A stretch of DNA of 64,000 bases from an uncultured Pelagibacteraceae bacterium (GTDB lineage: Bacteria > Pseudomonadota > Alphaproteobacteria > Pelagibacterales > Pelagibacteraceae): positions 1 to 64,000 of the forward strand of contig CACAWF010000001.1 of NCBI GenBank assembly GCA_902536085.1, written 5' to 3'. Below are positions 2,311-3,703 of the stretch, piece by piece. Under the pieces are notes generated by a model, which did not search any database, was not told the DNA's origin, and saw only the letters and a program-made list of their open reading frames with translations. Every line of letters begins with the position of its first letter. Within the stretch, counting starts at the first letter, position 1. The translations under genes were made by a program, and so were the position numbers.

Positions 2311-2357
2311 TTATATTATACTCCAGAAAATATCTTTTATATCCGGAGTATATATAT
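2311..2357. promoter_or_regulatory. Divergent promoter/operator pair B and C
   Basis: Inverted TATACTCC (2317..2324) and GGAGTATA (2345..2352). Reverse strand reads CTGGAGTATAATATAATATG into ORF 2309..1806; forward reads CCGGAGTATATATATG into the structured RNA. Confidence 0.5.
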
Positions 2358-2358
2358 G

Positions 2359-2483
2359 TGAGCTAGTTAAAGTTCTTTTACTTAGGTGAAGAGAAACAGC
2401 GATGTCTCTTGAGGTATTATAGATTATTTAGCTTCCATACCTGTTGTCCACCTAATCTCCTTTCTTAAATTTTAGCTAGCTCA
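2359..2483 (+). ncRNA. Candidate structured RNA/leader with four nested or branched helices
   Basis: P1 TGAGCTAGTTAAA(2359..2371)/TTTAGCTAGCTCA(2471..2483), 13 bp with one U.G; P2 TTAGGTG(2382..2388)/CACCTAA(2449..2455); P3 AAGAGA(2389..2394)/TCTCTT(2405..2410); P4 AGGTAT(2412..2417)/ATACCT(2437..2442). Confidence 0.6.
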
Positions 2484-2506
2484 ATATAAATTATGAAAGA
2501 TGTAAT

Positions 2507-3045: not shown

Positions 3046-3245
3046 ATTGGATTAAAAAAGAAATAAAAAAAAATCTTCCAAAAGCAAAAGATTTAAAAAA
3101 TATTTCTAAAGTTATGCTTGCTCATAATATCGATATTTTAAAAGACGAGCTGAGAGAAATAATTGCAGAAAGAGATTTTATTTATGAAGAAAATAAAAAA
3201 TTAACTAAAAAAAATTTAGAATTGTTAAAAAGATGTTCTCTTTAA
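3042..3245 (+). CDS. Hypothetical 67-aa probable coiled-coil protein
   Basis: MNWIKKEIKKNLPKAKDLKN...; the ATG at 3042 is more likely than the listed start 2979 because of ATGA coupling. Confidence 0.5.
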   Translation: MNWIKKEIKKNLPKAKDLKNISKVMLAHNIDILKDELREIIAERDFIYEENKKLTKKNLELLKRCSL

Positions 3246-3331
3246 TTTGGCAGCTTATTACAAGTTTAATTTTAACGATTATACTAGGATTTGGAATATT
3301 TAGTTTAATAAAGTTTTTTATAGGAATTTAG
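3233..3331 (+). CDS. Single-TM microprotein, 32 aa
   Basis: MFSLIWQLITSLILTIILGFGIFSLIKFFIGI, overlapping the end of the preceding ORF; not in the supplied track. Confidence 0.4.
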   Translation: MFSLIWQLITSLILTIILGFGIFSLIKFFIGI

Positions 3332-3343
3332 TTATGAATTTAT

Positions 3344-3428
3344 GCTCAAATGGCGAAATAGTCAGACGCGACAAGTTTAACTTGTTTCACTACGGTGAGT
3401 ATCAGTGCAAATCTGATTTTGAGCACCA
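3344..3428 (+). tRNA. Divergent class II (Leu-like) tRNA with encoded CCA; 7-nt anticodon loop reads UUA, otherwise a degenerate tRNA-Leu(UAA)
   Basis: Acceptor GCTCAAA/TTTGAGC; TGGCG..GACGC D-arm like tRNA-Leu; GACAA-GTTTAAC-TTGTT; variable arm TCAC-TACG-GTGA; T-arm ATCAG-TGCAAAT-CTGAT; A73-CCA. Confidence 0.65.
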
Positions 3429-3447
3429 TAAGATGACTATATCTTGC

Positions 3448-3470
3448 GGGGAAGGATAGATCCCTTCCCT
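3448..3470 (+). other. Strong stem-loop downstream of the tRNA-like gene
   Basis: GGGGAAGG-ATAGATC-CCTTCCCT, 8 pairs including one G.U, no U-tract. Confidence 0.5.
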
Positions 3471-3484
3471 GTAAAAAATGAATT

Positions 3485-3703
3485 ATGAAAAAAAAGACTA
3501 AAGAAAATAATATTATAGATTTTTCCGAAAAGTTTATGGAAAAAAGAGTTCGTCAAGAAAGAAAAAGCTACTCTAATAAAATTGTAGGGGAGTGTTATGA
3601 GTGCTTAGGTGAAGGTATAGTTTTAGTGGATGACGAAATTATGGAGTGCATAAGTTGTGAAGGAGTAGGTACAATTTATTATGGAAAAGAAAATATTAAT
3701 TGA
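3485..3703 (+). CDS. Small DnaJ-type zinc-ribbon protein
   Basis: CYECLGEG...CISCEGVG: paired CxxCxGxG motifs. Confidence 0.6.
   Translation: MKKKTKENNIIDFSEKFMEKRVRQERKSYSNKIVGECYECLGEGIVLVDDEIMECISCEGVGTIYYGKENIN

Follow-up and report, generated by a model that had tools for sequence, protein, structure and literature searches.

A tRNA-Leu-Related, Apparently Non-Decoding RNA Linked to a Small Membrane Peptide Gene in Pelagibacteraceae Genomes

The locus and its genomic setting

The DNA analyzed for this report, referred to below as the window, is a stretch of 64,000 nt from an uncultured member of the Pelagibacteraceae. Near its beginning the window carries three adjoining elements on the same strand: an ORF for a small hydrophobic peptide, a tRNA-like gene that begins 12 nt beyond the end of this ORF and, directly 3' of the CCA encoded by the tRNA-like gene, a tail that consists of AGATGACTATRTCTTG followed by a 12-bp hairpin (Table 1). 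The original prediction, which dealt with the tRNA-like gene, overlooked the peptide gene, the tail and the hypervariability of the anticodon loop in related genomes.

Table 1. Positions of the features of the window that are discussed in the text
Feature	Position	Strand	Basis or remarks
HATPase (MORC-like) ORF, 358 aa	52-1128	-	very start of contig
CCGGAGTATATATAT and its inverted form	1640-1810 and 2330-2360		upstream of divergent ORFs around a 167-aa ORF
Strong fold, long stem GAGCTAGTTAAAGTT/AATTTTAGCTAGCTC	2355-2490		z = -3.3
32-codon ORF, hydrophobic single-TM peptide MFSLIWQLITSLILTIILGFGIFSLIKFFIGI	3233-3331	+	homologs in this position at all 16 loci
tRNA-Leu-like RNA, class II, encoded CCA, probably non-decoding	3344-3428	+	ARAGORN, model R1, compensatory pairs
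Hypervariable 5-nt anticodon loop TTTAA	3376-3380	+	closed by invariant stem 3371-3375/3381-3385
Variable arm TCAC-TACG-GTGA	3387-3398	+	UNCG-type tetraloop
Conserved 50-nt 3' tail: AGATGACTATATCTTG, then hairpin	3429-3478	+	hairpin 3444-3455/3463-3474
72-aa CxxC (DnaJ zinc-finger-like) ORF	3485-3703	+	syntenic neighbor; rmuC and sbcB-like genes come next

The tRNA-like gene was found at 16 loci (see below). For 15 of them, the flanking small ORFs, together with rmuC where the contig reaches that far, place these elements in a slot just upstream of rmuC, and in genomes that lack them homology is lost at the start of rmuC. In genome G405, the same elements lie in quite different surroundings. 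The 72-aa CxxC ORF (family 1) is present at 9 of 10 loci and exhibits a weak match to DnaJ_CXXCXGXG that falls below the Pfam cut-off. The other side of the slot is occupied by changing defense-type genes, often restriction- or Druantia-like: for example, an intact HATPase gene and a DruA relative in G049, a cytosine methylase with HATPase and Vsr in G064, and Vsr-like genes, recognized by eye, in G385 and G419.

Some further observations can be recorded for this region. The DruA relative of G049 (L030 6773-8746; PADLOC, E 1e-121) adjoins the HATPase gene and a small sigma-factor-like ORF, and no other recognized Druantia genes occur in the stretch read. The C-terminal part of the window HATPase ORF is out of frame relative to its intact 601-aa homolog in G049 (L030 8759-10564), which might reflect a sequence error, since this ORF lies right where the contig begins. 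The long stem of the strong fold upstream of the peptide gene closes a three-way-junction-like structure that is 98% conserved in G049 and only partially matched in G445. The recurring CCGGAGTATATATAT is possibly an operator, and the first of the two stretches in which it lies is conserved also in G391, G445 and G447.

Structure of the tRNA-like RNA

A tRNA-like gene with all of its arms had been predicted at this location, and the ARAGORN program bore this out by calling a tRNA-Stop(tta) with exactly the same coordinates. The 7-bp acceptor stem (GCTCAAA/TTTGAGC) is followed by a discriminator A73 and the encoded CCA, the D-stem is GCG/CGC, and the T-arm reads ATCAG-TGCAAAT-CTGAT. In line with the original description, the D-loop has AAATAGTCAGA in place of AAATTGGTAGA, and the T-loop, TGCAAAT, likewise departs from the usual sequence. 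Also as described, the anticodon arm can be read in two ways, either with a 7-nt loop or, in the register of tRNA-Leu, with the 5-nt loop TTTAA closed by ACAAG/CTTGT plus one G-T pair. The predicted fold is more stable than expected by chance (z = -3.2 for the 85 nt, and z = -4.9 when the 50-nt 3' tail is included). The Rfam tRNA model RF00005 did not match this RNA even at E <= 1, which places it far from canonical tRNAs; the ordinary tRNA-His of the window scores 72 bits with the Rfam tRNA model. No tmRNA was called by ARAGORN in the window or in the homologous loci. A protein-coding reading of the same DNA (frame MAKQLDATSK...) was rejected: it is interrupted by stops in 5 of 14 aligned copies, and the changes fall mainly at codon positions 1 and 2 and track the stem pairs.

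Homologs in other genomes

Collectively, our searches revealed 16 loci for the tRNA-like gene in Pelagibacteraceae genomes, 15 of them complete. A DNA search of 201 genomes detected three copies in addition to that of the window, all in the same genus, and a covariance model (R1) applied to 397 genomes of the family detected ten members in two genera at 82-116 bits, with the canonical-like copy of G405 at 82, the other members at 101-116 and ordinary tRNA-Leu(UAA) at about 59. Five extra loci, one of them truncated, came from a pattern scan of GTDB species genomes, and one more (G575) from a longer model that includes the tail (R2). With R2 the members score at least 140 bits and everything else, including tRNA-Leu, no higher than 73, a two-fold gap between this family and real tRNA-Leu. 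Going by the record names, the carriers are mostly single-cell assemblies. One of the 16 loci is on a contig labeled Micavibrio, which is likely to be mis-binned, since the adjoining genes are of SAR11 type. Phages had been named as another place to look for homologs; no match to the tRNA-like gene was found by pattern searches of viral contigs or in phage records, and no relative of the 32-aa peptide was found in viral contigs.

Evidence for a maintained RNA structure

The pairing and loop statistics reported here are based on an alignment (A6) of 14 complete copies. Standard pairs occupy 99.6% of the stem cells in A6, and in 8 of 36 pairs both partners have changed, so that the compensatory changes which had been proposed as a criterion in other SAR11 genomes do exist, whereas the random decay of stems expected for a pseudogene does not. 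Double-change cells number 31, as compared to 9.9 expected in shuffles, a count that was reached in 0 of 500 shuffles; these shuffles ignore relatedness between the sequences, and the 0/500 is by itself not a probability. Sliding the pairing partners, as a control, abolishes the signal. The compensatory changes are distributed over four separate helices, i.e., the acceptor stem, the variable arm, the T-stem and the hairpin of the tail (3 pairs), and none occur in the D and anticodon arms; since the anticodon stem is invariant, its pairs provide no covariation evidence. In the variable arm, a U-A/C-G double change distinguishes 5 of the 14 sequences at one base pair, and 13 of the 15 complete copies have the UNCG loop. 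The compensatory changes in the stems show that the tRNA-like element is being maintained as an RNA structure rather than decaying as a pseudogene.

The best-scoring canonical relative of this RNA is tRNA-Leu(UAA), and the copy of G405 looks closest to tRNA-Leu. The tRNA-like RNA shares with the tRNA-Leu(UAA) of the same bacteria the class II arm, A73 and CCA, but it differs from it in having, in register, a loop of 5 rather than 7 nt, in the lack of a fixed anticodon and in the loss of G19 and U55.

The anticodon loop and decoding

The anticodon loop is the part of the RNA in which the 15 complete copies are least alike. The loops read TTTAA, TTTTA, TAAAG, TAAAT, TAAAA, CTAGT, CAAAA, TGATA or AAAAA, or are shortened by deletion, and the corresponding "anticodon" in the ARAGORN calls is Stop, Lys, Phe, Leu, Ile or undefined. 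Even the window copy and the three others of its genus, which have near-identical bodies, have the loops TTTAA, TTTTA, TAAAG and TAAAT and would thus be read as Stop, Lys, Phe and Phe, respectively; the nearest relative (G049, 99% identical) has the anticodon TTT, and elsewhere AAA, TAG, GAT or undefined triplets are found. In A6, the mean pairwise difference is 0.464 for the loop columns versus 0.000 for the anticodon stem, and the loop ranks first in variability among 77 five-column windows, the next non-overlapping one being at 0.24. In the close pairs G000/G049 and G064/G065, the sole change within the 85 nt falls in the loop.

These comparisons bear on the original proposal that the gene specifies an ochre suppressor, which did not survive them, the loop being unconserved in homologs that conserve the remainder of the RNA. 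No anticodon is conserved in a 7-nt loop with U33 across the 15 complete copies, some of which lack U33 altogether, and an intact, normal tRNA-Leu(UAA) is present elsewhere in the same genome. That the RNA is non-decoding is well supported by the alignment, because its anticodon loop is free to change, and a tRNA fold that is kept through covariation around a variable loop is what would be expected of a pseudo-tRNA. A role as an aminoacyl-tRNA is unlikely as well. In 14 of the 15 complete copies, G405 being the exception, G19 is replaced by U and U55 by G, and with them are lost the D/T-loop contacts G18-U55 and G19-C56, both of which are required by the leucyl-tRNA synthetase (LeuRS) of E. 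coli (PMC9976931). All complete copies have A73, and all but one of the 15 keep the encoded CCA, features that would be consistent with a charged tRNA-like molecule as well.

The upstream peptide, the tail and the extent of the transcript

The 32-aa peptide gene ends 12-17 nt upstream of the tRNA-like gene in 16 of 16 loci, a linkage that spans two genera and includes G405 with its different surroundings. The peptide is hydrophobic (GRAVY 2.06), with a single transmembrane segment by hydropathy, and nine of its residues (M1, F2, I5, W6, I13, L14, F20, G21 and G31) are invariant in 14 copies. Substitution patterns (mean pS 0.55 versus pN 0.18; dN/dS 0.04-0.36 in unsaturated pairs) indicate that it is under purifying selection. 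Homologs of the peptide without the tRNA-like gene occur in G451 (L125) and G271 (L126), so the peptide does not need the RNA; of the two, it is perhaps the older or the more general one. In G451, the gene next to the peptide homolog resembles a GIY-YIG-type nuclease.

Within the tail the motif GACTAT/TCTTG is invariant. A pseudoknot of 4-6 bp could be formed between GACUAU and the AUAG of the tail loop, a pairing to which compensatory change lends no support. In the region of the three elements promoter-like matches were no more frequent than expected by chance and a search for terminator-like sites found none, so that nothing clearly separates the peptide gene from the tRNA-like gene. The conserved 5' ORF and 3' tail suggest that the tRNA-like RNA may be part of a longer transcript.

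Interpretation and alternatives

The explanation that we favor, with a probability of roughly 0.6, is that positions 3233-3478 constitute one module, in which the gene for a 32-aa membrane peptide, a non-decoding RNA domain derived from tRNA-Leu and a 3' hairpin tail are carried by a larger transcript. With the peptide and the RNA on one transcript, the tRNA fold would serve as an element for recognition or processing, either through a putative RNase P-type cleavage just after the stop codon of the peptide or through binding by another tRNA-handling protein. It might set the 3' end, the stability or the output of the peptide mRNA, and the tail could be a released or downstream regulatory part.

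The location of the module in a turnover-prone slot near restriction and Druantia-like genes, together with the membrane nature of the peptide, suggests a role in the response to stress or phages. The original idea of a tRNA mimic in an accessory island holds up in this setting. We regard as tentative, and on balance unlikely, the more specific proposal of a small defense or stress module whose membrane-active peptide would be gated by a tRNA mimic that senses the state of tRNA processing, for example during phage infection. About as tentative is a module for toxin-antitoxin function or abortive infection, in which the peptide would be a membrane toxin restrained by the tRNA-like and tail RNA. 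Type I toxin-antitoxin systems combine small hydrophobic toxins with antisense RNAs, and the module resembles them in having a tiny, single-TM peptide beside a constant, structured RNA partner in accessory DNA near defense genes; unlike an antisense RNA, however, the SAR11 RNA is encoded downstream on the same strand without overlapping the peptide mRNA, and the peptide exists without it in two genomes.

Two other possibilities appear doubtful to a similar degree, and more so than the preceding ones. One is that the conserved DNA is the core of an attachment site for a tyrosine recombinase, with a variable overlap that marks the insertion point of defense islands. The invariant inverted arms ACAAG/CTTGT around a hypervariable center of 5-7 nt would fit such a site, as would its position at the border of variable and shared genes, with homology to non-carriers from rmuC on. 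However, in the flanks read no second copy or direct repeat was found at the far end of the islands, where short matches were at chance level, no integrase was noted among the genes read, and stems other than that of the anticodon arm show RNA-type covariation, both in the acceptor, whose pairs lie on either side of the proposed crossover, and in the tail hairpin. The other is a leucyl donor for a non-ribosomal purpose, which LeuRS would charge for the modification of a peptide or lipid. Its class II shape, A73, encoded CCA and tRNA-Leu ancestry are compatible with this, the peptide gene is adjacent, and the anticodon is ignored by LeuRS (PMC9976931), but the D/T contacts are lost in nearly all copies, as described above, and no gene for an aminoacyl-tRNA transferase was recognized nearby.

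A tRNA-Leu pseudogene left to decay after island integration might be imagined from the edge of the variable region and the distance from canonical sequences, but it is very improbable in view of the double changes and the conservation of the RNA with peptide and tail at 16 loci, where the loop varies and its stem never does. Least probable of all is an ochre (UAA) suppressor that controls stop readthrough, which the TTA anticodon and U33 of the window copy recommend and the TTT of its 99% identical relative, the loss of U33 elsewhere, the missing Rfam match and the lost loop contacts contradict.

Relation to known systems and significance

Staphylococci use certain tRNA-Gly isoacceptors in cell-wall synthesis and not in translation; these have altered D and T loops, keep their anticodon arm and are aminoacylated. 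The SAR11 element resembles them in its altered D and T loops, but lacks a comparable enzyme context. The nearest described case in kind is the tRNA-Other of Bacillus cereus, a pseudo-tRNA beside an island that is reported to be part of a larger regulatory RNA, with a Trp-type anticodon and a T-box-related role (PMC3399842). The analogy, which implies no shared ancestry, lies in a tRNA-like RNA outside of translation that flanks a genomic island; the SAR11 RNA differs in its tRNA-Leu ancestry, free loop, linked peptide gene and hairpin tail. To our knowledge, functional pseudo-tRNAs have rarely been documented, and then usually in one species. We found nothing relevant in the literature on a tRNA-like RNA of SAR11, and the unit of RNA and peptide is previously undescribed.

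The genomes of SAR11 bacteria are streamlined and shed dispensable DNA. Such genomes keep a family of tRNA-derived RNAs that is backed by covariation and combines an unchanging peptide partner with a freely varying anticodon loop. The family also shows that a non-decoding RNA can lie behind a gene finder's label of "suppressor tRNA", and the module offers a defined unit of 250 nt in which these ideas are testable.
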